A DNA stretch of 64,000 nt from Saturnia japonica (lineage: Eukaryota; Arthropoda; Insecta; Lepidoptera; Saturniidae): the NCBI GenBank assembly GCA_033032175.1, contig CM065310.1, positions 5,518,001 to 5,582,000 on the forward strand, in the 5' to 3' direction. This document shows, piece by piece, positions 681 to 58,924 of this stretch. The position numbers and the translations under genes are program-made. Numbering within the stretch: position 1 is the first letter of the stretch; each line of letters starts with the position of its first letter. Below the pieces are notes generated by a model that saw nothing but the letters and a program-made list of their open reading frames with translations, was not told where the DNA came from and searched no databases.

Positions 681-689
681 GGCCTTTCA

Positions 690-3583
690 ATGGCTAAGTT
701 TAAACCGAAAGCGTTAAATCTTTCATTTTTTAACGCGCGAAGCCTACTTCCGCAGCGTGATCTCGTCGCGACCTTTCTTAAAGATCACCAAGTAGATGTT
801 CTTTTAGTGCAGGAGACGCTCTTAAAGCGTGCTAAACGTGATCCAAAAATCGCGAACTACAATATTGTAAGAAATGACCGGGCCGGCCGCGGGGGCGGCA
901 CTCTCATTTATTACAAACGATCGTTATATTGTACGCCGGTAGATCCTCCGATACTTACCAATATGGAAGTATCCGTGTGTAGACTAGGAATGACCGACCA
1001 CCCGTCCATAAAGTTAGTCTCAGTTTATCTCTCGCCGAGGAAAGAGCCTCTCAGTTCTGACCTAGAAAAGCTACTTTCGCTCGGTGAATCGGTCATTATA
1101 GCGGGTGACCTCAATTGTAGACACACTTCGTTTGGCAATTGGAGAGACTCCAGTAATGGGGTTAAACTCGAAGAGCTAACGAACGTGCTAAACTTTGATG
1201 TCATAGCGCCACCCACTCCCACCCACTTTCAAGACAACTGTATGCCGACAGTGCTTGATGTAGCTCTCATTAAAGGTATCGCGCTTCGGTTACGACTCAT
1301 TCGGGTCGTACACGAGCTCGACTCCGACCACCGTCCGGTCATCATGCAGCTAGGTCAACCAGACGACTCTAGCCCTCCTTCGGTCCAAGTGGTTGACTAT
1401 GCCAAGCTAAAACATTATCTTGCGGACAGGCCGTCCTCGTCCAACTTAGATAGGATCCCGGACGTATTGGGGTCCGTTACGGACGTAGATCTCGCGATCG
1501 ATTCCCTGGTCGACCACCTGCAGGCCGGCATCGGAGAGGCCTCGAGAGAGGTCGAAGAGGCGAGCGATCGCCGCTTCGTACTCCCTGCCGACGTGCGGGC
1601 GTTGTTGACGGAAAAGAACGCGGCGACTCGTGCGCACGACCACTATCCGACCGAGGAAAACCGCGCACGTTTACGCGCACTTCAAAGATCGGTTAGAGCC
1701 CGTATATTAGAACTCAGAAGTCACAGATGGGACGCCCTCGTCGAAGGGCTAAGGCCGTCGCATCTGGCTTACTGGAAATTAGCTCACAGCCTCAAAATAG
1801 AGGCTTCTTATCTTATGCCCCCCCTCGAGAGGGGTCCCGGTATACCGCTCGCCTTCGATAGCAGCGACAAGGCGGAGTGCCTCGCCACTTGTTTGGAGAG
1901 CCAGTGCTCTCCGAACAGTGTCGATGCAAATACCGACCGGGTCGAGGGTATCGATGGATGCGTGCGGGAGCTGGATAAGCTCCTCCGACAGACTCCCTGT
2001 CCCCAGTCACGTCTGAGGAGGTTCTTTCCATTATAAAAAGCCTTAAGCTTAGAAAAGCACCAGGTCCCGACGGGATCAGGAATGAAGTACTTAGACTTCT
2101 TCCCGATCGCCTCATAGCTCTTTTGGTCTGCATCTTCAATGTAGCCATAGCCCACTGCCATTTTCCAGCCGCCTGGAAAAAGGCAATAGTCATAGGTATC
2201 CGTAAGCCCGGCAAGAGCGCGTCGCTTCCCGACAGCTATCGCCCGATCAGTCTCCTAAATACTTTAGGGAAAATGTACGAGCGGATCCTTCTGAACCGTC
2301 TCAAGTCAGTAATAGAGGAGAAAGACCTCTATCCGCCTGAGCAATTCGGTTTCCGTGCTAGATATTCTTACACTCATCAAGTGCACCGCCTCACGGAGCA
2401 CGTTGCATTTAATTTTGCTGAATTATATAAACCCCGCCGTACACTTGCGGTCTTTTTCGACGTTGCCAAGGCCTTCGATAAGGTCTGGCACGAGGGATTG
2501 ATCTACAAGTTGTATCACTTTGAAGTCCCCGATAGGCTAATTAAAATAATTCGCGACTATCTAACAGATCGCACCTTTCGCTATAGAGTGGAAGGTGAAT
2601 TGTCCACGCCCCGTCCAATACGCTCAGGCGTTCCCCAAGGTTCGATCCTGGCTCCTAGCCTATTTAACCTGTACGTCAGTGACCTACCTCGACTCCCGGA
2701 GGTCGAGGTAGGGCTATACGCTGACGATACAGTCTTATATGCCTCAGATAGGAATAGATCCCACCTCAGACACAAAGTCCAACGCTCCGTGACCACTCTC
2801 GGGAAGTGGTTTAACGAGTGGCGTATAGCCGTTAATCCCTCGAAGAGCGCCGCGATGCTCTTCGATGCGGATTCGTCACAGATACCGTGGAAGCTTAAAC
2901 CTGTTAAGCTCTACGATAATCCGATTCCGTATGTAAGAGAGACCAAATATCTAGGGGTAACCCTAGATAGTAGGCTCTCTTTTAGACCCCACATCCGTAA
3001 GGTTAGGAACAGGGCCGCGTGGGTCCTGGGCCGGTTGCATCCTCTGTTGTGTTCGGTGAGTAAAATGTCCACGCGACATAAGCTCACGCTCTACAAGACG
3101 TGTATTCGACCAATTTTGACATACAGTTGCGCCGTGTTCGCACATATGTCCGAGTCGAGTTTCAAACGGTTACAATCGATACAGAATAGGTTCCTCTATC
3201 GTCTCACCGGGGCCCCGTGGTATGTTCGAAGCGTAGATCTCCATAGAGATATGGAGCTTCCTTCGATACATGCCTACGTTAAACAGCTCTCCCGTTCGTA
3301 TTTCGACACCGCGTCGAACCACGCGAATCCGTTAATAAAAACAGCCGCCACTTATGTTCCGGCACCCACGGACATCCGGTGCAAACGCCGGCCGCGCAAT
3401 ATTTTTATTGATCCCGACGATCACATCGAAAATTCGAATAAATATTACACATCCGTCTCTCCAAACAGAGCGTGCCAGCGCCCACGCCCGCGAAACCACC
3501 GTTCTCTCCGCAGAGGGCGGGCGGTCAATTTCGCTCCAGCACACCCGTCACGTCCACCCTCTCTAGCGGTAACCCAAGCCTAG
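690..3583 (+). pseudogene. LINE ORF2 (endonuclease + reverse transcriptase), one frameshift
   Basis: It opens with ATG shortly after ORF1. The endonuclease domain (about 700-1360) shows FFNARSL, VQET, AGDLNCRH and SDHRPV, the metal- and phosphate-binding motifs of APE-type LINE nucleases. The reverse transcriptase follows in another frame: APGPDGI (about 2060), FFDVAKAFDKVWH (about 2455-2490), SGVPQGS (about 2625-2645) and the catalytic YADD (about 2716-2730). The frame change falls in the C-rich stretch around 2000-2020, where frame 3 soon hits a stop at 2034-2036 while frame 2 carries on into VTSEEVLSIIKSLKLRKAPG. This one-base indel is the only break seen, so ORF2 as present cannot make a full-length product. 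Confidence 0.9.
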
Positions 3584-15044: not shown

Positions 15045-16306
15045 TTTACCTGTGAAATTGCCGTTCTGCAGTACTGGCCATTTCAAATCAAAATAATTTT
15101 TGTTTGGCTAAGAATTCTAATTTCAAATTAATGTTATTTTAAAAACATGGAATTCTTTTTCCAAAAGTAGTAATTTGTTTATTGATTAGTGTTACATTTT
15201 CATCGCATTTCAATCTTTTTTGTCATCATGGATACGTTAAAGATTCGAGTAATTATAGAATATGAGTACCGTCGTGGTAACAACGCAGCACAAGCGGCAC
15301 GCAACATCAACGACGTTTACGGAGCTAACACTACAAACCAACGCACCACCTGTTATTGGTTTGCTCGCTTCCGTTCTGGGAATTTCGACCTGAATAATGA
15401 ACCTCGCGGTCGTCCGAAGACTTTGGTCGACAATGACGAATTAAAGGTGATCGTGGAAGCTGATGATACACAATCTACGGCTGAATTAGCAGCAGCTTTC
15501 GACGTTAGCGTCAAAACAATATTGGTCCATTTGCGTCAAATTGGCAAGGTAAAAAAGCTTGACAAATTGGTGCCCCACGAACTCAATGATCGCCAGCGCG
15601 AAGTACGCCTCGAGACGTGCCATGCACTGCTCAACAGATACACAAATGAAGGAATTTTGAATCGCATTATTACCTGCGATGAAAAATGGATTCTGTTTGA
15701 TAACCGCAAGCGCTCAGCAAGTTGGTTGAATACTGGTTCAGCACCTAAACAATGCCCTAAACGAAAACTTACCCCTAGAAAAGGGATGGTCACTGTTTGG
15801 TGGTCTAGCGCCGATGTGATTCATCACAGCTTCATACCAAATGGTGTGTGATGTGTACTGTGAAAAACTGAACACAATGATGGAAAAGCTGGCACATCTC
15901 CAACCAGCATTGGTCAATCGCTCGTCTCCGCTGCTCCTGCACGACAACGCGCGACCTCATACTGCACAGCAGACGGTCTCCAAGTTGCAAGAACTGGGGT
16001 TGGAAGTTCTCCGTCATCCGCCCTACTCACCAGACCTTGCGCCTACAGACTACTACTTTTTCCAGAATTTGGATGACTCCTTGGCGGGAAAAAAATTCAA
16101 TACCCGAGAGGCAGTATAAAATGCCTTTGAAGAATTTGTTGCCTCCCGTCCAGCTGATTTCTTTAAGAAGGGCATCAATAAACTGCCACTGTGCTCGCAA
16201 AGATGCATTGTTTGCATGGGTGATTACTTCGATTAATACAAATAAAAAATACATGAAAAAAATTTGTTTAAATTTTTTCATACAAAACGGCAATTTCATA
16301 GGTAAA
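15045..16306 (+). mobile_element. Mariner transposon, cecropia-like, defective
   Basis: About 1.26 kb, a normal mariner length, bounded by imperfect inverted ends: TTTACCTGTGAAATTGCC on the left and its counterpart TTTACCTATGAAATTGCC, read on the minus strand, on the right. A TA dinucleotide precedes the left end (15043-15044), as expected for the mariner target site. The right flank reads GA rather than TA, so the duplication is not preserved there. It encloses one broken transposase reading frame on the plus strand. Confidence 0.88.
15228..16236 (+). pseudogene. Mariner transposase pseudogene (DD34D type)
   Basis: Starts at an ATG beginning MDTLKIRVIIEYEYRRG. The paired-type DNA-binding half includes WFARFRSGNFDLNNEPRGRP; the linker is KLDKLVPHEL; the catalytic half has ITCDEKWILFDN, then WWSS, HDNARPHTA and YSPDLAPTDYYFF. 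All three catalytic Asp are present. The reading frame breaks at about 15843, where a few codons between IPNG and DVYCEKL appear deleted. A TAA at 16117-16119 interrupts REAV/NAFEEF. The C-terminus MGDYFD then ends at the expected place. Residue pattern and C-terminus match what I know of the cecropia subfamily. Confidence 0.88.
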
Positions 16307-18899: not shown

Positions 18900-21737
18900 T
18901 TAACCAATGATACGTAAATTAAATGGCGTTTGTGCTATCTGTAAAGGTACTGGGGTTTGTGATATCTGTAAAGGTACTGGGGTTTGTGATATCTGTAAAG
19001 CGACTGGTGTTTGAGTTAATGTCGTGTTCGATGGCAACATATTCATATGCCAATTTCCCCTTCTCTTGGACATGATGAAGCTCATTCCAGCTGAAACAAA
19101 ATAAATAAATAATTTGAAACAATGGTGAGTTTATTCTGAATTTTATTAAAGCCACAGAGTTAATGAAAGGTTAGACCTGACATCCAAAGATGTGTGTTAC
19201 ATATAAATATGATAACCATTTGTTATACTTTTTATCATAGCGAAATCTAGGCCCAGTTTTTTCATCCGTAGTAAAAGACACTATAGTTAGATTGACCATA
19301 ACTAAAATGGTAACCAATGTTATAGTCCAAGCCGAGCGATTAAATTTTCTTACAAATGTCACATATTTGACATAATTGGTTGGTTTTTAACTATGAATAA
19401 AAATACGCATCGGCCATTATTTTAATCATTTGGTACAGAATCTGACCATTGGTTGAGTTAACTACGGATCAAAGCTGGACCTAATAACACAATTTCTTAC
19501 AAGGCTATTTAATTCTAAACTATGCATAGCTTATATTATAGTAACTAAGAGGGAAGCCGATATCTGTCTTATGTTAAAGATAATGTAATGTAACTTATAA
19601 TGCGAGTGTGAAAGGAAACGTTGGAAGAGAAAGGCCTAGACGAACATTCATCGATCAAATCGGAGACGTTCTGAAGAAAGGTCAGGTCATGAGTACCTAC
19701 TCTAAACCGACGAGCATGCATGAGAAGATTAATGAATGTCGAAGAAGCGAAAGATGTATGCCAGGATCGTAGCAGGTGGAAGGACGTGGTCTCTGCCTAC
19801 CCCGATGGGAAATAGGCGTGATTTATGTATTAAAGATTGTACTTATTACAAATATGTTCTAATCGAGGTTAGTAAACTCAGATATGTTATTGAAATCGGC
19901 CGTTATTCAACCGATTGCAGATCTATACTTTACTAAATCTATGATATAACCACTTATGTCAGTTACTGTATTAGCAGTGACTTTTCAAAATGCTTTTACT
20001 CACTGATGATGGGCAAATATAATTAAATAAAAAGTTAAATTTGGTTAAAGAAATGTGTCAGATTTCTCAAGATAATATTAAATACAATCGTAGTGACAAA
20101 TATTTCAATAGAATAAGTAATTTTATATTATTTATCTAATGATTATAATAAATATTTATAATTTAAACTAACATTATAAAGCTCAATATATAATTTGAAG
20201 GTGATATACTCTGGCAATACCAGTCAAGATTGAAAAAAAAAATTGTTGTATTTTATGACCTAAGTATTTATTGAGGCAGAATATAGGCTACATAACCTTA
20301 TGTTACGACCCTAAGGAACAGTGTAATATTTTTTTATTTTTTTTACAATCAATAGGCTCGCGTTTGACCACTATACCTGATCGTAAGTGATGATATGGTC
20401 TACGATGCAGCACGCTTGCCTAGAAGGTACCTATTCAATCGAGACTTAAAGATACTCAGGTTATAATTATCGGGAAATACGAAACCCGGCAAAGTGTACC
20501 ACTCTTTAGCGGTGCGCATTATAAATGTGCTAGCAAAACGCTTTATGCGCACTGGTGGAATGTTTACCATAAATCGATGACGCTTCGCCGTGTCTCTTGT
20601 CGTCCGATGGTGGAATTACCATGAACGTCAAGTAATTAGGGAAGCTGTAGGCAAGTACGGTAAGGGACAACAATGATAGGCAACACGGGTGCGTTGGCGG
20701 TAGCGCGATGGGTAGATAGTCGATTAAATCTAACACGGGTGAAACCGTGGTATAGATCTTGTGATACATACGCATCGAAAGATTGAGGTCACCGGGGCGA
20801 TTTCGTGGTCGCGGACCGCAATCGCAGAACTCATCGTAAGTATCATCATCACATGTGATAGTACACCACAGTAAACTAAAAAAGGGCTGAAATATTAAAT
20901 ATAAATATTATTGCAGTTCATTTTGTTTTAAATACAAAAAGTTGTTAATGTAAATATAAACTACAATTTTTTTAATTGTATTTTGAGTTATTTCAGTTCT
21001 ACTATCCTATTAAGTCAATATAACATATTTTATACTGATATTTGTGAATATAAAATCTTCAAAAAGTTTGTACAAGAATTTTGAATATCTATACGAGTTG
21101 ATCCTTTTGAAGTTTTTTGCGGATGGTTTAGCGGTTTTTATTTAAAATTCATAAAATTGTGATAATATAGCTGGTATTTTGCATAATAAGGCTTGATTAT
21201 TGGGCACAAATATATAGGATTAGAAATAATAACATGGACGACGAATTCTGAGATCCCACAAAAGCTCCCTAAAAAGTTCTAACAAGAGAGCTACCATCTT
21301 GTTACAATACTGAAATAATCATAGGACAGGATACTCTAGATTCACTCGATAATGGCAGTAATGGTCTTCAATAAAGAGGACTAGTTGCCAAGTTAGGAAG
21401 AAGAACATAGATAAGAGGAGCCTATATTAACTTTTTTGTTCAAAAATTTCTTAAATTAAGTGATACAAAAGCTAAGTTTTTTTAAATATAGGGTTTAATG
21501 AAAATAATACAAAATTGATTTATTATTTATGCTATTGTTTATCCATAATTTTCCATATTTATATTCCTTAATCGTTATAATAACAAAATAAAACAAAAAT
21601 TGTTTCTTTGCAATGTGTACTTGGGGTATAGTTTACATTTTTTTAGGAAATAATATTGAAAAACCTACCTTTGCAGCAATGACTTCAAAGAATAGAAACA
21701 TCACAATAATATACGAAAACACTCGCACGTCAGCCAT
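18900..21737 (-). CDS. Gene 1: small secreted four-cysteine protein, 3 exons
   Basis: Exons are 21669-21737, 20772-20886 and 18900-19090 (69 + 115 + 191 nt), encoding 124 residues. All introns begin GT and end AG; phases are 0 and 1. Exon 1 is a complete signal peptide starting [17 protein letters not shown] and ending VIAAK. Exon 2 encodes [20 protein letters not shown], then CDCG and a basic PRPRNRPG, ending LNLSM. Exon 3 holds [15 protein letters not shown], then three imperfect 9-residue units (QTPVPLQIS type), ending NLRIIG. Four cysteines (CX3CX8CXC) suggest two disulphides. Gene 2 is its paralogue and supports every splice site. The function is unknown to me. A secreted peptide, adhesive or matrix role is only a guess. 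KRR could be a processing site. Confidence 0.82.
18938..19018 (-). repeat. 27-bp tandem repeat inside gene 1 exon 3
   Basis: About three units, each containing GGTACTGGGGTTTGTGATAT on the plus strand and CTGTAAA, encode the VPLQISQTP units. Two units are almost identical and the edge units have drifted (GCGACTGGTG, GATAGCACAAACG on the coding side), as expected for unequal copying. Confidence 0.85.
19612..19815 (+). pseudogene. LINE remnant in gene 1 intron 2 (RTE-like C-terminus)
   Basis: Plus-strand translation gives [19 protein letters not shown], followed by MHEKINE and, after a frame change, a [15 protein letters not shown] stretch. I know this order ([14 protein letters not shown] ... 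V(V/S)SAYP) as the carboxyl end of repetitive lepidopteran LINE ORFs. It lies opposite in strand to the host gene. Confidence 0.6.
20640..20758 (-). repeat. Family B repeat next to gene 1 exon 2
   Basis: TCTAACACGGGTGAAACCGT at the right end is the inverted head shared by copies at 24170-24262, 58925-59030, 63090-63256 and, in the other orientation, 60135-60365. Its head lies about 13 bases past the 5' splice site of gene 1 intron 2. A further GC-richer stretch at about 20338-20520 resembles the body of the SINE copies (TAAGTGATGATATGGTC). Confidence 0.6.
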
Positions 21738-21858
21738 GTTTTATGATTTCTTCATGAAAAACATGAAACTAACTTATTTCATACTTATACCGCGAACTTT
21801 GCGTAATACAAAACTGTATTACAAAAACATTGCTACGGAAATTCATGAAGTAACACAA

Positions 21859-21864
21859 TTTATA
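21859..21864 (-). promoter_or_regulatory. TATA box of gene 1
   Basis: GCATATAAATTG on the minus strand, 122 bases before the ATG. Gene 2 has TATAAA at 126 bases from its ATG, and the intervening leader is partly conserved (TTACGCAAAG...CGCG.TATAAGT on the coding side). The transcription start is expected about 30 bases further down. Confidence 0.65.
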
Positions 21865-21989
21865 TGCGTTTATTCTTTAAAATAAAACAGGTTTGAGGTG
21901 TAATTTAAGCCGCTCCCAGATCAATAGTCCAGGAGCTAGTCTGTTATTCATTTCGCCCTTTTTTTGTCAGCCATTACGTCTGCGAAATA

Positions 21990-22335
21990 TTTTATTTTTT
22001 TCGTTATAGGTTTAGCGTTGTGGCCGCAATCTTACCTGTTCTTATCTTATGTGACGATGTGGCCCAAGATGGTAGCACAATAATTCTAGTGGAAACCTGA
22101 CTCTGAAATGCAGCTGCCGGACAAACACCTATTGGTGTTTGGCTACAGATTTTCAACTTGAGAGTGGTAACTAACCAGGCGGGCATTAGAAAAAACCCTA
22201 CCCCCATGCTTGCTTGCATGCTATGGTTTCATCACGATGTTTTCCTTCACCGATAGCTCAAGCTCATAGTAGGGATTCGAACTCACGTCGATCGACGCGG
22301 AGTTTGTATATGTTACCAACTGAGCCATCATTACA
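21990..22335 (-). repeat. tRNA-derived SINE, near full length
   Basis: On the minus strand it opens AATGATGGCTCAGTTGGTAA (A-box-like) and has GTGAGTTCGAATCCCTACTA (B-box-like), then a unique body ending in CGCTAAACCTATAACGAAAA. Lacking an intact cloverleaf and followed by a conserved non-tRNA body, it is a SINE rather than a tRNA gene. It lies between genes 1 and 2. Confidence 0.8.
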
Positions 22336-22836
22336 TAAAAGAAAATCATTGCATTGCAAAATAATTATTTATAACCCTGAATTTAGTAGACATTTTATTA
22401 TTTATTTATTTTGAATAACGTTACGTTTTAATAAACAGAAAATGTCTACTAGAGCACTGCAAGAAATGAAATATACTTATATTTAAATATTATTTAAACT
22501 TCATTAACTGTATATATAAATAATTAGATGAAAAAATTTTTTGCAAGTGAAATCTCAAAATCGTAGAAAAGAAAGAAAAATAATATTGTATATATCGGAA
22601 AGTTGTCTTATGTATTAAATCCTTTCAATTTGGCTTATTGTTATTGTATTTTCGATTTTCTTACCAAAAATTTAGCGGATCGAATATCTCCTACAAAAGC
22701 ATTTAATTTAGCACTTTAAAGAAAACAAAGATTATAAAAAGGAATACACCATGTTTTTATTAAACATATATGCTCAAAAAATGCAAAAAAAACAATGTTA
22801 CCTACATATTTTATATACATAAATTTAAAGTTGCAC

Positions 22837-22842
22837 TTTATT
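22837..22842 (-). promoter_or_regulatory. Polyadenylation signal of gene 2
   Basis: AATAAA on the minus strand 4 bases after the TAA of gene 2; another AATAAA overlaps the stop codon itself. Such a compact 3' end suits a short mRNA. A usable downstream element was not confirmed. Confidence 0.5.
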
Positions 22843-22845
22843 TTT

Positions 22846-24822
22846 TTATTTTCCAGCGGCAGCAGTTGTGGCAGCGGCTGTTGTGGCAGCTGCAGTAGTA
22901 GCTGCGGTTGTAGCAGCTGCAGCAGCGGCTGCGGTTGTGGCAGCTGGAGCGGCAGGTGCAGGTGTTGCAGCCGGAGCAGGCGCTGCCGCAGGAGCTCCTG
23001 CTGGAGCAGCCACAGGAGCTGTACCCGTCGGGCTCCAAGGAACCATATCCAATAGAAATGAACCACCCATATTGGACAGTGTAAGATTGACCCCGTTTGC
23101 AGGAGCTGTAATATAAGTGTATTGATGAATAACATTTCACCAATCACCATAAAAGTTAGTCGTTCTAAATGATTTTTCATGGAGATTTAAAATCTATCCT
23201 TGAACACAATAGATGACGGCTGTGGTCATGTTATTAAGTTTTGAAAATGGCAGAACGTTTTCGGAACCAGCTAATGGAATACAAATGTCAACTAAACTAC
23301 CAATATTGTATAGAATTAAAATACTGACGTATAACTAAGCTCAATTGGCCTGGATGAGCTCCTGGAGAAACTGGTGATGCTGGTGAGCTCTGCGGGTGGC
23401 TCTGGGTATGACTCTTGGGACAACCATCACACAGGCCATAATCATAAGAACTTTCATCACTTGAGTCGTAATCATCACAAAGTAAGCTGCACCACATACC
23501 CAAGCCGAAGAACGGCTGAAAATACAACATACGTTTTATATATGTATTACAAAATTTTTTCAAGCGACTTGTATAAAACTTAATAGTATATTTATCTATG
23601 ATACTATATTATTATTAACTAATAACTAAATAAATAAGAGTTTTTTGTTTGTTTGATTAAACATATAATCTCTGGAACTATAGAACGATAGTTCGGATTC
23701 TATTTTTTATCATAACCGGATTCACGAGGAATAGTATAAGAGAAGTAGTATAACATTAGGCTACAACTCTCAGCTAGTATTAAGTATTTATTTTAGTTAA
23801 GTAAGTCGAAAATGGAAGTGTTTCAGAATTGCTTTAACGGCGTGCGCAGGCGTAACGGTTAATGGTACGTAAAAATACAATATTGCCCAAAAATATTGGC
23901 CCTTAGTATATCTAAACAAAGTCCACGATAGCATACGTCTATCTTTTATATATAAGCCATAATAAGGTATATTGTTACAAAAAATATCAAATGATAAAAA
24001 GTTATTTTTGAGCATTATTTTTAGACACGGAACATTAATTCTTATGAACAAAAACTACTTCATTATAAAGACAATTTTATGAAGTGAAACTTTGCCCTTT
24101 ATGGCATATTATTAGGACATATAGTAGGAGAAAATGGAAAATTAAAATTATTTGTACTTGCGGGAAGTGAGAACAATTATGATAGGCAGCACGGGTTCCT
24201 TGGTGGCGAAACGGGATGTTTGTCGGATAAAATTAACACGAGTAAAACCGTGGAGCACAGCTAGTATTTAATACAATAATTTTAATTGTTTGATATATTT
24301 ACAAAAAAACGAAGTAAAAAATGTAATACTACATTCTATTTATTGTAGCTGTGAAAAATCTTTTCCATGTGCATAATAAAATCATAAAGTAAATGATAAA
24401 ATCTTTGAAAAATGAAAATAGGAAAGTATTGTTAAACTAATTTAATTTACATATTATAAACCAAATGAATAGAAATAAACAAACACAAACAATCATCAGC
24501 CTCTTTAGACTATAATTAATTACGATTAATACTTTTAAATTTTTTATTACATCTCAACTTAATAATTTAAATTTCTTATAAAATTAAGACAATTAACGTC
24601 ATTAAAAATCAGATGCTTCTTGGAGTTTGTTCAGACAACATATTATAATGTTACTGAATATAATTTATTTTAAATATTAATATATCTGCTATAATACTAA
24701 TTATTCCTTATTTTTTAATAAATAAAATAAAATATGTTCATTGAAAAGCACACCTTGGCAGCGATGACTTGGAATGACAGAAGAGTCACAAAAATATATA
24801 CACACGCTCGCACTTCTCCCAT
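22846..24822 (-). CDS. Gene 2: secreted four-cysteine protein with Ala/Thr-rich tail, 3 exons
   Basis: Exons are 24754-24822, 23329-23515 and 22846-23105 (69 + 187 + 260 nt), encoding 171 residues; phases are 0 and 1 as in gene 1. Exon 1 is a signal peptide beginning MGEVRACVYIFVTLLSF and ending VIAAK. Exon 2 encodes PFFGLGMWCSLLCDDYDSSD, an acidic Ser/Tyr stretch, CDGCPK, then a Pro/Ser/His-rich segment ending GQLSLVI. Exon 3 gives NGVNLTLSNMGGSFLLDMVP, colinear with [19 protein letters not shown] of gene 1, then about 60 residues of Ala, Pro and Thr ending AAAGK. Four cysteines are arranged CX3CX15CX2C. The donors (GTGTGC, GTCAGT) are weaker than in gene 1. The Thr/Ala/Pro tail looks like a mucin-type O-glycosylation region. 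Function unknown; no known family recognised. Confidence 0.82.
24009..24160 (+). repeat. Diverged duplicate segment, copy in gene 2 intron 1
   Basis: GCATTATTTTTA ... ACAATTTTATGAAGTGAAAC ... GGAAAATTAAAATTATTTGT. It aligns over its whole length with 25656-25778 plus 26292-26330, at very roughly 75-80 percent by eye. It may be a dispersed repeat or a trace of the tandem duplication that made this gene cluster. Confidence 0.6.
24170..24262 (-). repeat. Family B repeat in gene 2 intron 1
   Basis: GGCAGCACGGGTTCCTTGG ... AATTAACACGAGTAAAACCG TGGAGCACAGCTAGT. Same arrangement as the copies at 20640-20758 and 63090-63256. Confidence 0.65.
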
Positions 24823-24947
24823 GTTTCTGATGTTATCATGAAAAAACGTTCAGACGGTATTTTACATGTACGTACGTACTTATAACGCGGGCTTTTGCGT
24901 AACATTGCTTCGTCTTGCATGAGTTTTGGATGCTACTTCAAGGTTCG

Positions 24948-29433: not shown

Positions 29434-31342
29434 GTGTCGCCCATTTTTAGGATGAGATCACCGATCCTTATTTGTGGTGACCGTAGCAAGCGACACTTTC
29501 GCCGAGTTAAAGGGTCGGGGTCTGGGTCTGGCTCGGCTTCGAGTGACGCCGAGCCAGAACCAAAAGTGCGACAGACGGTGAATCGAGGTAGAGGCCGATC
29601 TAACGAGGCTCTCATCCACAGAGGCTAGGCAATACCTCAAGGGATCTTTTGGTGACCAGTCAGAGGTCGATGCCGAGAGAGAGATTGTGGAGATGGCCAA
29701 ACAGGCCTCCGACTCCTGGGTCACACGGCGGTTCTCAGGACTTCCAGGAGAGAAGGCGTCCGTTGACTCCTTGACATCCGAAGCTTTTGAGAGACAAATA
29801 AGAAGTTCGGTCTCAGCGGTCTTTCGAGTATCGCGTCTCTCCAAGGGACTGAAAGGCACCAGTTCTCGTCTCCTTAAGGATGCAGTTGCCTCCATAACTG
29901 AGGCAACGGGTGTCCTCGTATCGAGAAACACCACAGAGGAGACGGCCGCTTTAAGAGCGGAGATTGCAGCCCTTAAAAAAGAGTTGGCTGAAGTAAAGGC
30001 GCTACTGAAGCCCACCAAGGCTGCTCCCGTGTCTCCAGCTGTGAAGAAGTGCCCTCAGCAAGCGGCGAGACAGGAGGCGAGGGAAGACTTTCCTTCCTTG
30101 CCAGGGCCAAAACGGCAAGAATTAGGGAAGGAAGTACCTCCAGTATTGGGACTGGATGAGATCGTGCGCGCCGTTATGCTCCAAGTGGGTAGTATGATGG
30201 ACGCACGAAATTCCGCACTGGAGGAACGGTTACTTCCGCCACCGCCTCCTCGTCGGCCTCCACTTGCAGTGGATCATAGGGCTGCAGCTGCGAGTCAAGC
30301 AAAAGCGCCAGTTAAGCGTCAAGTCCAGCCCGAAATCCCTTCCGCCCAACAACCCGTGGGGAAGGAAGCTCCCAAAAAAAGGTCCGAGGAGCATCTTCCG
30401 ATACCCAATCCTCCTGATGGGGAATGGGTTACCGTAGGAAAGAGAGGCAAGCGTAAGCGGACGCGTAAGGGAAAAGACACGCGACCAAAACGGCGAACGC
30501 ATACCCTTCGGCTTCCTAAGTCGGCTGCGGTGGCGCTAACAGTGAAGCCTGAAGCTTTAAAAAACGGCCTCACATATACTGAGGTCCTTAAACAAGCAAG
30601 GGCTAAGGTGGACCTCGCCAGTCTGGACATCTCTAGCGTCCACATTAAGATGGCAGCTACTGGATCGTGCTTAATTCAGGTACCGGGCACAACAAGTGCC
30701 GAGAAGGCGGATGCCCTCGCTGAGGCTCTCAAGGGGTCTTTTGAGGCAGACGACGTAAGAGTTTCCAGGTCAACAAAATGCGCAGAAGTGCGCATTTCAG
30801 ACTTAGACTGCTCTGTTGAAGAAGAGGAAGTTGTGGCTGCTGTCGCCCGAGTTGGGAACTGTCCTCTTGAACATATCAAGTGCAGAGGCATCCGAACTGG
30901 GTTTAATGGCCTAAGTACCGCTGTCATTACGTGTCCGGTGACTGCGGCCAAAAGTCTTTGCGATGGTCGGCGGCTCCTAGTTGGCTGATTATCATCACAG
31001 GTTAAGGTTCTACAGCCAAGACCTCTGATGTGTTTCCGTTGCCTGTGTATTGGGCACGTTGGTGCTCAGTGCGAGGGAACAGATAGGAGTGACCTTTGCC
31101 TGCGCTGCAGCAAAGTGGGACACAAGGCACGCGAGTGTAAAGAGACGCCACACTGCGTGGTTTGCTCGGAGGTCGGAAAGACGGCAAATCACCGGATTGG
31201 CAGCGGAGCTTGTGCGGCATCCTCAAGCAGAAGGAGAAAACGGGGTAAAAGGCGTAAGGAGCATCTCCACAGACAACGCGATCGTCGGCCCTTAATAGGG
31301 TGCCGCCGGCTGTGTCGGAGGCGAACATGGATTACCAATAAT
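29434..31342 (+). pseudogene. R1-like LINE ORF1 pseudogene
   Basis: The N-terminal piece (from 29434, MSPIFRMRSPILICGDRSKR, then a Gly/Ser run and SSDAEPEPK) shifts frame near 29600 to DLTRLSSTEARQYLKGSFGD and the main frame. A coiled-coil-like helix follows (LRAEIAALKKELAEVKALL), then a Pro-rich linker, a basic KRGKRKRTRKGKDTRPKRR segment and an RNA-binding-like domain. A TGA at 30986-30988 probably replaced a Trp codon; reading on in the same frame gives CFRCLCIGHVGAQC and CLRCSKVGHKAREC, two canonical CX2CX4HX4C knuckles, and a third looser one. So there is one frameshift and one nonsense change. Confidence 0.82.
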
Positions 31343-31343
31343 A

Positions 31344-32036
31344 ATGGCACTACAGGTTCTCCAGGCGAATCTAAACCACTGCGCCAGAGCTCAAGACCTA
31401 TTGCCAAACCTTGGGGGGCTCGGTTCCGCTTGCCGGAAGCTCTACCTGGGAGCCGTACGGTTGATGGCTCTATACGGGTCTCCAGTGTGGGCGGACAGCC
31501 TGACAGCCCGTCATTTCACGTTCCTGCGTAAACCGCAGAGAGCGATGGCCGTCAGAGCTGTCCGAGGGTACCGTACGGTCTCGTTCGAAGCAGCCTCCCT
31601 ATTGGCTGGATCTCCACCATGGGATCTCGAAGCGAGAAACCTCGAGCTGCTGTTTAGATGGCGCGAGGAGGCGCTGAGACGAGATGAGAGACCAACGCCG
31701 CGAGAGATTGCGGCGTACAGCTCAGAGCTTCGTCAAAATCCTATGGTTGAAGTGTGGGACTTGCGACTTAGCCACCCTAGTTTTGGCATGGCGACCGTGG
31801 AAGCAGAAGATACTGCGCAGCACACACTAGCCGTCTGTCCCGCATGGGACTCGCTGCGCCGTGACGTTGTCGCGACAATCGGCACCGATCTCTCGCTCCC
31901 GGCCGTGGTTCTGTCTATGGTCGAGAGCGAGAGCGGGTGGAACTCCGTCTCCTCGTTTTGCGAGCAAGTCATGCTTGCGAAAGAGGAGGCGGGGAGGGAG
32001 CGGGAGCGTAACACCTTGCTCCCCTCCTGCGGTTAA
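31344..32036 (+). pseudogene. R1-like ORF2 remnant joined across a large deletion
   Basis: It starts MALQVLQANLNHCARAQDLL, the usual beginning of an R1-type ORF2 before the endonuclease. Within a few residues it passes to sequence from the far C-terminus (LYGSPVWADSL, AVRGYRTVSFEAASLLAG, EDTAQHTLAVCPAWDSLRR). Endonuclease and reverse-transcriptase cores, normally 700 or more residues, are absent. A second, smaller loss seems to lie before EDTAQHT, where a Cys-containing segment normally precedes the H-C pair. The join is in frame and leaves a 230-residue open frame. Confidence 0.8.
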
Positions 32037-34428: not shown

Positions 34429-37400
34429 TTAAAATCCGACATCGTAGCTAATTTTTGGACGCTTTGGAATTTTGCTATCGACTTCTAATAGAATAGGTCC
34501 GTAGTTCGGTTCTAACGGTTTCTCAGTACAATCGTTGTGCGATATCGGAAAAACGTAGTTTATGTCGACGTCATACCTGTAATTAAATTAAAAAAAAATT
34601 ATTGTTAGTTAATATTTCTGATCGCAGTTGCAGGCAATCATGTCGCGTTTCTAGAATAACCGGTGAATATCCAGTAAACAAGCGAAGTACCAGGGATTTC
34701 TACCAGACTTTATCGTAACCACCGTCTCGACCAAACTCGGCACCGTGACTCTCTTTTAGCTTGTCGCGTTTCGGGATCTGCCAGTCTGTATATCCAGCTA
34801 TAGACCGTCTTGAGAGCGACGACCAGCAATGGATGGATGTTCTACAAACTAGTGGTCGCCCAGTGGTTGAAATTTTATCGTAATTCATTAAATTTTTAAG
34901 ATTGAACGTTATTGAGGTTCTTTTGTTAAAAACTATTATTATTGGTACCTATATAAAAACAATACTATATAATAAAATATAATTTTTTGGAAACGTATTT
35001 GCACATTTGCAGTATCGTCAAACGAACCTCAGCTAAAAAACGTTCTCTGCCTTAAATATACCACCCCCAAATCACCACAATTACTGGTTCTGCACTGTTT
35101 GCATACAACGGCTTCCCACAAACTTTACCAGGTCGTCGGTCCACCTTGTGGGGGCCCTGTCTAAGCTGCGTCTTCCGGTACATATTTGCAGTATGAACAT
35201 AAACAATTAATGTTCGATTTAATTTAATTTATTTCTAACACGTATTATTGGTCTTTACTCCTTAAGAATCTATTTTCATATGAGAACCCGGTATGGAGTT
35301 TTATGAGCAGTGAAATTTATAAAAGCGTTAATAAAAAAACAAACATTATGTTTTCTGTCAAAAGGTCATTACTTCTTAGTAAATATCAGATTTATTTGCG
35401 ATCTAGTGACTAATGCAAAAATTGACTTCCTCTTTTAATTATTTCAAAAATATACACCCAGGTTTGTTTATTCTTTAATTTGCTGAAAGATGGTGTTCTA
35501 TGACAATCGTACATACACACTTTTATTATACATATTTTTTTGTTTTTAGCACTTCTTCTATAGAAAATTTAATTATGTCAAATAACAAACTCCTCCGTGT
35601 GTGAAATATACTTAAAGAAGGAGTACAATGTCTTTTCTTCACGTAATAGGTTAAAATACGGATTGTAAGATACCTAGGTAATTTATCCCGTAAATAAGCC
35701 ATGACGTTCTTAGGTAAAGTCTTGGTTCTGGATAGAACGAAAGCTGTCAGGTATCTTGCTCCTTCAGTCTGCTCTGCACAATGTAGGAGAAGTGCCCACG
35801 TTTTATACTCAGTGTCTAGGACGTAAGTATTGTATATTCCATCATCTGTAAATAAAAAAAAAATATTAAAATTAATGGAAGATATCACGATAGAGTGTGA
35901 AGTTTGACTTAGAGAATAACTATTTATGCCGCAAAGCAGCAGTTCTCGCTCTGGAAGAGTTGGAAGGGTGTGGTTGCATGCTCATTTAATACCTCTTAAC
36001 AAAAAATAAAAGAATCACCATGTTTTTATGTTTAACCACAATGGTTGGTAATAAGTTCTTAGTGACAGATTTTCAACTTGTCTTCTTCTTCTTTAATTTA
36101 AGAGTCCAGTTCTTGTCGGTGGAACAATTGCCACTGTTCCCTAACCTCTGCTCTTTTTTTTGACCTCTTGATACGACACGACTCCCACTTTATATTTCAC
36201 TTGTTGGAAAAAGATTCGTCTAGGTATTTCTCTATTTCGCTTTCCTTAAATTTTTCTTTCTGAAATTGTCTTAAAGACCTTGTCGTATCGTATCAAGTAT
36301 CCAAACATCTTTCCTCTTCTGTTATCTATATTTCTCATTAACTGTCATTCCTCATCAACCTTTCTTAACACTTCCTAATTTGTAATACTTTCTGTCCAAC
36401 TGATGTTCTCCATCCTTCTCTAACACTCCATCTCAAACACTGCCATCTGTTTTTCAAATTTGGGGCAGCTTGAATGGTTTTTCAGAGGTATTTACTTCCA
36501 CCCCACATAAGACTGCAGCCAAATAACCTTTTTTTGAATTCTTGCTGCAAGGAGTATTTCCAGAGATTCTTGGGGATCCTGGGTTCAAGGTCGATAACAC
36601 GCTAGTGATACTTCTGGTATTACAAGCATCCGTAGGCATCGGTAACCAGTTACCATCAGTACACTTGTTTGCCATCTTAGTTATGTAAAAAATACTTCTA
36701 AATTGTTGTAAATATCACATCAACTTACAGGTGCTTTCTGCATGTGTCCAATGCGCTGGTTCATTCATATCCACTCTCCAAGTAATGTTCCCGAGCAAAG
36801 TTTCTCCAATAGGATCGTCGGCGAAGCGATACGTGAAGTTCATCGTTACTCCTGGAGTCCATTCCACTGTGCCATCTGGAAATTATAAAAAAAAAATAGC
36901 AATACGATTTGACTACACTGTTAGACTGTCATTATTTCCCTGAAGCCTCAGAAGGCTTCGATAGTATCACCGGGTTTAGTAAAAACAAAATTTTATTATT
37001 TGTTTTCATACGTAAGTCATAGATGAATAGAAGTTTTGTTTTAGTGGTACGGTAAATTGATGCAAGTATCCGTACAATCCATTGCCAATCGCCACTGTAA
37101 TGTGGGTCTGCGTAAATAGACACAACTATACAGTGGTTGATTCCGAATCGGGAGTTGTATATGCGAATTACTATGAGTGGCTTTTCTTCATATTAATGTT
37201 AGACTTTTGCATCTCGGTATAATATGTACATTATTCATTACTTAAATACTGTAAATATTTTTTACTATATTTTTTATCTTACCAGCGGCTGGAACGTGGT
37301 CATCTTGAGTAAATACAGCTCTCATACAACTATACGATAGAGCTTCTTCAGAGCTCGCATAGTATTCCACGACGAACCAGTCTCCGAGCATCTGAAAATA

Positions 37401-54681: not shown

Positions 54682-55967
54682 CGAGGGCGGTACTGAAAAT
54701 TTCGGGAATCAAGGAAGTGACACAACATTACTATTTAAAAATGTATTTATTGCTTTTCCAAGTATTCTCCGCGAAATTTGACACATTTTTCCATACGATG
54801 GAACCAATCATTGAAGCAACCATTCCATTCGGAAGTTGGGGTCTCCAAAATGGCCGTTTTGTAGGCGTCCACAGCTTCTGCAGGTGATGAAAATCTCTGT
54901 CCACGCAATTTATTCTTTATTTTAGGGAAAGTATAGATATCATTAGGGCTTAGGTTGGGGCTGTACGGCGGATGGTCTAATAATTCTATGTTTTCTTGCT
55001 CTAAAAACTCTTTTGTTCTGTGCGCGGTGTGAGAACTCGCATCGTCGTGATGGAGGATGATGCGGCGGTTGCCGTTCTCTTTACGGAGTTCAGAAACGAC
55101 CTGTGGCAAACAAATGCTAGCATACCATTCTGCATTAACCGTTCTTTGTCCCTCAAGAGGAATAGTCATAACATGGCCGGTTTTGGAGACAAACGTGGCC
55201 ACCATTTTTTTGTAACACTCCGTGAACGAATAATTTTTGTTGGCTTTAACTCATTTTCGAACACCCAAACTCGTGACTGGTTTTATGTTTCGGGTTCGTA
55301 CGCGTATATCCAGGATTCGTCACCTGATACGATGTTGTATACAGCATTTAAGGATCCTGCGTGGAATCTTTCGAGAGTTCTGACGCACCAAGTAACGCGA
55401 GCCACTTTTTGCTCTTCACAGAGCGAATGCGGTATCCATCGGGAAAACAACTTTTTTACACCTTATTGTTCATGCAAGATCATTTGTATTTGACTCATGC
55501 CAATGTCTAAAGTTGCCTGAATTTCGCGGTATGTCACATGTCGATCTTCCTCAATCAGCTTACGCACAGCATCAACGTTTTCTTGGGTGACTGCAGTTTT
55601 TGGACGACCTTGACAAGGATCATCACTGAGCTTGACACGTCCACGGTAAAATTCAGCAAACCAGCGATAAATTGTGGTTTTGAATGGGGCTTCATCACCA
55701 AATGCAGAAATCATCCGGTCAACACACTGTTTTTGTGTTAAACCACTTCGAAAATCATAATAAATCATCGCTCTTGAATTTTCTCGAGTCAATTCCATTT
55801 TCTCAATGACTAAACAAGTTTGACAAAACCTTGTGACAAGACCGAGAATCTTTTTTAAAATAAATAAATTGTATTCGATTTTTAAAACCAAGGAGTTTTC
55901 AATTAAAAAGATTTTAATATGACAGGAACAGTGGAAATATTCCATTCCCGATACTTTTAGTGCAGCC
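54682..55967 (-). mobile_element. Mariner transposon, mori-like, defective
   Basis: The left end CGAGGGCGGTACTGAAAA then TTTCGGGAAT pairs with the right end, read on the minus strand, GGCTGCACTAAAAGTATCGG. A TA precedes the left end (54680-54681) and TA follows the right (55968-55969); the outermost CGAG seems lost at the right. About 1.29 kb with one broken transposase on the minus strand. Confidence 0.85.
54747..55798 (-). pseudogene. Mariner transposase pseudogene (DD34D)
   Basis: It starts MELTRENSRAMIYYDFRSGL and ends GEYLEKQ. WFAEFYRGRVKLSDDPCQGR is in the DNA-binding half. Catalytic motifs are SGDESWIYAY, LHHDDASSHTA (the usual N after D is D) and YSPNLSPND, with 34 residues between the second and third Asp. 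Three breaks were seen: TAA in HEQ/GVKKLF (55463-55465), TAA after EPET near 55285, and a one-base loss in an A run near 55204-55210. The residue pattern resembles the mori (Bmmar) group I know from silkworm. Confidence 0.87.
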
Positions 55968-57720: not shown

Positions 57721-58924
57721 AAAAATAATACCCAAGTATATAAGTATGATAGTTTCGAATTTCTCAGAATTACATTGAAATGTTTATTACCTACTTAAGA
57801 AATATTAAAGAGATCTTTCTAAGCTAATATGAAATGATAAATATAAATAATAATAATATGTATAATAAGATAAATAATAATAACCTACTAATTTATGGAA
57901 TAAATGAAGTAATTATTCTGTCTGAAAAGATATATTCTGTTGCTTGAACTCAATATAACTTACTAATGACTGGAAAATACATTTAAATATAGACAACAAT
58001 ATTATATACATGAAAACAAAAATATATCCTTACAGTCCCACCGTATCTGATGCGTTTGAAACTGCAAGAAACAATAAATTTAAATAATAACGCGTTCAAA
58101 TTAATTGCATCTTATTATTAACTAGGTAAACATTACTTACATTTTTACTAGGGTAAGATTACTATGGGGTTGACATGCGCGAATTTTGTAAAAGCCCCTA
58201 AAAAGAAGAATAAAAAAAATTATACCATGCCTTAATGCTTGAATGTAACTTATTATAATTGAAAAATAAACAATTTTTAACATATTTACAGTTTTATACT
58301 TCGTGTCACCTACCAGTTGTGAAGCATGGCGTTTAAACATTTCAAAGGCGTTAATTTAAAGATGTAATGCATTGAAAGGCTAACATCGTGACGAAAACAT
58401 AGCATGGTGGTAGAATATGGTATTCCAGCAGCTGCACTTGAGAATCAGTTCCTCCTCTAAGGTTGAGGTAATGACCTAAAATCCATAAAATTAAAAAAAG
58501 TAATTAAACTCGTTCTTATTAAAATCGATATTACACAATACAATTACAAAGACATTGCATTACCTCGAAGCTTTCCCTACCGCCAGGCTATCACCATCAG
58601 CTTATATAAATAAACAAATATTATTTTTGGAGAGTTAACCCACTTGATTACCATTTATTAGTAGTTAGAAATTAAAACAAACTAAAAGACTTGCGCTTAA
58701 CGACACACACTGTGCGCCGTGCGGTAGAAAGCATTTGTCTCCACCATTTTTTAATTTCGCCATTGTGAGCTTAACTAAAATCTTTAAATTAAGAAATTCA
58801 ATTTACTTTCTCTATTTGTTTGAACGTGCTTCATTTCACACTACGACCATAAGGAATGGACCAGTCTGCAGTAGCCATCGACGTCAAGAAATCTGGCATG
58901 CTGTAGCCGGCTTTAGGCAAGTAC
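57721..58924. other. AT-rich stretch, no gene recognised
   Basis: A scrap at about 58398-58465 (CATAGCATGGTGGTAG, AGCTGCACTTGAGAAT) resembles the SINE body. Confidence 0.4.

Follow-up and report, generated by a model that had tools for sequence, protein, structure and literature searches.

The window analysed here, a 64,000-nt stretch of the Saturnia japonica genome (580 Mb in 402 contigs), raises the question of whether two short, similar gene-like structures placed in tandem on its minus strand are real genes and, if so, what kind of protein they encode. The two predicted genes, denoted gene A and gene B, are arranged as follows (positions are those of the window):

22846-24822, minus strand: gene A, whole; three exons, 171 aa
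24754-24822, minus strand: gene A exon 1; ATG and 23-codon predicted signal-peptide exon ending VIAAK; donor AAG/GTGTGC; relatives known
23329-23515, minus strand: gene A exon 2; PFF, WCxxxCDD, CDGC and a Pro/Ser-rich linker; ends VI+C (phase 1)
22846-23105, minus strand: gene A exon 3; 19-residue block, then an Ala/Thr/Pro-rich tail and the stop codon
22837-22842, minus strand: AATAAA directly 3' of the gene A stop codon, located by eye; a second AATAAA lies at 22756-22761
18900-21737, minus strand: gene B, whole; three exons, 124 aa
21669-21737, minus strand: gene B exon 1; ATG and 23-codon predicted signal-peptide exon ending VIAAK; donor AAG/GTAGGT
20772-20886, minus strand: gene B exon 2; PFF, WCxxxCDD and CDC; ends SM+C (phase 1); donor GTATGT
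18900-19090, minus strand: gene B exon 3; 19-residue block, then a tail of 27-nt repeats (QISQTPVPL) and the stop codon

As the initial annotation had proposed, all six exons lie within 18900-24822, a span that runs exactly from the stop codon of gene B to the ATG of gene A, and the two genes have in common a three-exon structure with phases 0 and then 1. All four introns are GT-AG, and both genes splice in frame. The 23-codon exon 1 ending VIAAK, the mature start PFF and the WCxxxCDD motif are likewise found in both. Other proposed likenesses proved looser: the second Cys pair is present in both genes, although with unequal spacing (CDGC in A versus CDC in B), and the 19-residue block of exon 3 aligns without gaps, although at an identity of merely 5/19. 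The statement that no open frame exceeds about 90 codons is accurate for the coding exons, all of which have at most 87 codons, but not for the stop-to-stop frames that hold them, which reach 103 and 125 aa.

The similarity between the two genes was far above that of shuffled sequences. The alignment of the A and B cores scored 144, the best of 2000 shuffles reaching 46, and the mature part alone scored 87 against a best shuffle of 49 (2000 shuffles). Across 55 aligned codons, the differences at codon positions 1, 2 and 3 numbered 16, 14 and 32, corresponding to a dN of 0.36 and a dS of 2.03 (NG86), the latter close to saturation; these codons were taken from conserved blocks, a choice that biases the comparison toward a third-position excess and a low dN.

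The likeness extends upstream of the coding sequence, where each gene carries a related promoter word:

24877-24902, minus strand: gene A promoter word TTACGCAAAAGCCCGCGTTATAAGTA; its TATA box starts 62 nt before the ATG
21782-21806, minus strand: gene B promoter word TTACGCAAAGTTCGCGGTATAAGTA, one base shorter than that of gene A; its TATA box starts 52 nt before the ATG

Within 264 kb of the contig (the window plus 100 kb on each side), CGCGnTATAAGTA, a word chosen post hoc from the alignment, occurs twice, both times upstream of A or B; TATAAGTA alone occurs 40 times in the same 264 kb. A search of this region for the gene B word with up to five substitutions returned the A and B sites and one distant plus-strand site. 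The A-B promoter score was matched by 12 of 4000 random window stretches, or by 8 of 4000 under a second scoring, under a null that includes stretches overlapping both promoters. By sequence, A and B possess a common predicted promoter of the TATA type. The earlier view that these are real genes is borne out by the A-B alignment above all shuffles, the third-position excess and the promoter word confined to the two genes in 264 kb; A and B are, judging from these patterns, almost certainly real paralogous genes. No third copy was found within the 264 kb. Several frames in this region weakly match exon 1 alone, the best (E 0.047) at 58354-58503 of the minus strand, and we take them for leader-like chance matches.

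When the gene A protein was queried against 5.8 billion proteins, the sole match at E <= 10 among 7991 candidates scored was LOC110373306 of Helicoverpa armigera (E 3.4e-15), an uncharacterized nr protein of 179 aa that represents four member sequences and is 35% identical to the query across 77% of A. For the gene B query, none of 16 candidates reached E <= 10. A profile built from A, B and LOC110373306 matched three of 271 candidates, including LOC110373306 itself, which is a profile member. The second was A0A2A4J1W0 of Heliothis virescens (UniRef, 179 aa), also uncharacterized and 87% identical to LOC110373306. The third was P0003, a 56-aa frame (E 0.018) on two contigs, the longest of 978 bases, which carries exon 1 and then, as we read it, the beginning of the intron; an FFHDNIxN stretch upstream of its ATG resembles that before the gene A ATG. 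Compared directly with the H. armigera protein, gene B scored 108 for the core and 69 for the mature part, the best of 2000 shuffles giving 56 and 57, respectively. Eight comparisons were made among the A, B, H. armigera and H. virescens proteins, and in all of them the observed score exceeded every one of 2000 shuffles. A chance or repeat artefact is rejected on the grounds of the shuffles, the third-position excess and these relatives elsewhere.

LOC110373306 resembles gene A in its MGEVRAC leader, KPFFG, WCxxxCxD, CADC, VIPP joint, GxNFxM..GN...NMV block and Ala/Pro/Thr tail with a terminal K, and differs from it in having a longer linker, rich in Pro and Gly. A0A2A4J1W0 follows the same plan, with the same longer Pro/Gly-rich linker, and its exon-3 block is less like that of A, which it matches at 4/19 residues. 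Gene A has all features of this type, from the leader with the following KPFF and WCxxxC through the second Cys pair and the exon-3 block to the Ala/Pro/Thr tail; gene B has all except the tail, with CxC replacing CxxC. Four mature cysteines are kept throughout, at positions 32, 36, 52 and 55 in A, 31, 35, 44 and 46 in B, and 32, 36, 59 and 62 in both heliothine proteins. Relatives with conserved cysteines thus exist in two other species, the outcome that the initial annotation had set as a test of its own reading. Given the same two records, the suggestion that gene finders could easily miss such genes is not supported: as A-type proteins are already on record in H. armigera and H. virescens, gene finders have predicted the type elsewhere, and only its function has gone unrecognised. 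In short, the A type is already in databases without a function, and no record of B was found. Neither LOC110373306 nor A0A2A4J1W0 was mentioned in the full-text literature searched, and broader literature searches, together with sections of the H. armigera saliva paper PMC3203145, gave nothing linkable to A or B. A pattern search for viral relatives gave seven matches, none of them a relative.

These relatives also bear on the exon borders. Donor strength was expressed as a simple consensus score and ranked among the 3571 GTs on the strand. The exon-1 donors are good, within the top 1.2% (gene A) and the top 0.08% (gene B), and those of exon 2 are mediocre, as 19% and 25% of the strand GTs score equally well. 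Both LOC110373306 and A0A2A4J1W0 are continuous across the two predicted joints of gene A, K/PFF and VI/PP, and the gene A model is therefore supported by homology; this includes the putative exon-2/exon-3 joint, for which VI/PP in both heliothine proteins speaks. The putative second joint of gene B rests on the likeness of this gene to gene A.

The claim that no known family can be recognised agrees with the domain searches, in which nothing exceeded the cut-offs of Pfam or NCBIfam and no PDB sequence matched at E <= 10. In Pfam, A, B, LOC110373306 and A0A2A4J1W0 all remained below the curated cut-offs, the best match being DUF6470 on the repeat tail of gene B (19.7 bits, the cut-off being 28.9); the sub-threshold matches from the two collections (ZZ, DUF6470, Nlp36 and GltJ) were rejected as known domains. 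An AlphaFold2 model of LOC110373306 has a mean pLDDT of 38 and no confident fold, a result consistent with disorder but weak evidence for it, since the alignment comprised two sequences, the other being A0A2A4J1W0.

The tails have strongly biased compositions. The last 70 residues contain 34 Ala, 13 Thr and 10 Pro in A, 20 Ala, 13 Pro and 8 Thr in the H. armigera protein, and 22 Ala, 14 Pro and 8 Thr in that of H. virescens. The tail of gene B, unlike that of A, is a 27-nt tandem repeat encoding QISQTPVPL. Read on the plus strand (18904-19014), the repeats give CxICKGTG, which recalls a zinc-binding repeat and is taken as an antisense coincidence. Leader identity is 14/23 between A and H. armigera, 13/23 between A and B, and 8/23 between B and H. 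armigera, which suggests either that B split off before the divergence of A from the heliothine proteins or that B evolves faster. No such pattern is seen in the exon-3 block (6/19 for A and H. armigera and 7/19 for B and H. armigera, against the A-B value given above).

Taken as a whole, the comparisons support A and B as tandem paralogues for small proteins with four mature cysteines, predicted from the leader to be secreted, and their best reading is probably a secreted family that evolves rapidly, its members consisting of a Cys-paired head followed by a low-complexity tail. Passage through the secretory pathway would remove the leader, and within the short head the four cysteines would pair (CxxxC with CxxC or CxC); the head and the 19-residue block would be the conserved, possibly binding, parts. 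The tail (Ala/Thr/Pro-rich in A, built of Gln/Thr/Pro repeats in B) would remain disordered. To judge from its composition, O-glycosylation of this tail, if it occurs, could turn the protein into a small mucin-like or matrix constituent of silk, cuticle, the eggshell or the secretion of a gland. We propose that the tail may be free to vary, since nothing but its extended character would count. Overall, the best explanation, to which we give an even chance, is that small secreted moth proteins, with the mucin-like or matrix role included, are encoded here by paralogues in tandem. A coat or matrix role in itself falls somewhat short of even; the composition from which it is drawn also fits several other secreted classes. 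More tentative still is the idea of a previously undescribed family in which one Cys-paired head, exchangeable low-complexity exon-3 tails and one promoter type form a modular coat-protein system. Through the present comparisons a nameless database entry takes shape as a family to which a tandem paralogue, a conserved promoter and joints open to testing belong. Should its expression be confined to one gland, the family would serve well as a marker of lineage-specific secretion in moths. Unnamed fast-evolving secreted proteins are common in insects, and the interest is therefore modest.

Rapid evolution, secretion from a gland and tandem duplication are frequent among seminal-fluid and eggshell proteins. 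The main rival explanation, which we consider unlikely, is a reproductive protein, either a seminal-fluid component from the male accessory gland or an eggshell component. The divergence (35% identity over 77% of A relative to H. armigera) and the TATA promoter fit it, as does TTACGCAAA, present in both promoters, which agrees in all but the last base with the C/EBP element TKNNG(Y/A)AA(K/C) listed for chorion promoters in the sections of PMC4639761 drawn on here. The same sections describe chorion coding sequences as having two exons, against three coding exons in A and B, and a promoter word TCACGT, which was not seen by eye in the common A-B promoter stretch; on these two points, an identity as chorion proteins is not supported.

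That gene A is live and gene B a decaying relic of the duplication is less probable again. Such decay would agree with the absence of a database record for B, its different tail, the interspersed repeats within intron 2 and a first AATAAA seen by eye only some 325 nt beyond the stop codon, but it would have spared a frame intact over three exons, an excellent exon-1 donor (top 0.08% of GTs) and the promoter word, and the changes favour third positions. An immune or antimicrobial peptide precursor, with the Cys-paired head or the tail released and active, is the least probable reading, for although A and B are small, secreted by prediction, duplicated and equipped with four cysteines, no Pfam family exceeded its cut-off, the head of A is acidic rather than cationic and the tail is of low complexity.

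The seroins, silk-gland proteins of Lepidoptera, offer a further comparison by description. According to the portion of PMC6405961 drawn on here, RYGG occurs in 17 of 33 Sn2 and VYGE in 17 of 23 Sn3 sequences, and class Sn1 has charged residues around a Trp some 20 residues past the first Met, followed by a Pro-rich region. Seroins resemble A and B in being small, secreted and provided with Pro-rich linkers, and the Sn1 description, too broad to set A apart, loosely recalls W31 of A with the acidic stretch behind it. A and B have neither RYGG nor VYGE, which some seroins also lack, and they have conserved cysteines, whereas the string "cystein" does not appear in the main text of PMC6405961.

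The surrounding sequence contains further open frames and mobile elements. A minus-strand open frame at 35526-35981 matched lipocalin below threshold (16.6 bits, with the cut-off at 23; E 0.0092), and a pattern search for a GxW first-exon motif returned nothing convincing. A retrotransposon of the non-LTR type, with domains for endonuclease and reverse transcriptase, occupies 681-3583, and 29582-32036 looks like the gag and pol remains of another such element, with two frames lacking a Pfam match. Mariner-type transposase frames (HTH_48, Transposase_1, DDE_3) lie at 15186-15848 and 54747-55966. Intron 2 of gene B holds a short interspersed repeat (20332-20500) with at least 39 further genome matches at 84-91% identity (40 of 939 candidates scored). 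A 34-nt piece of this intron (20667-20700) is 82% identical to one in intron 1 of gene A (24173-24206), the two probably deriving from one mobile element.
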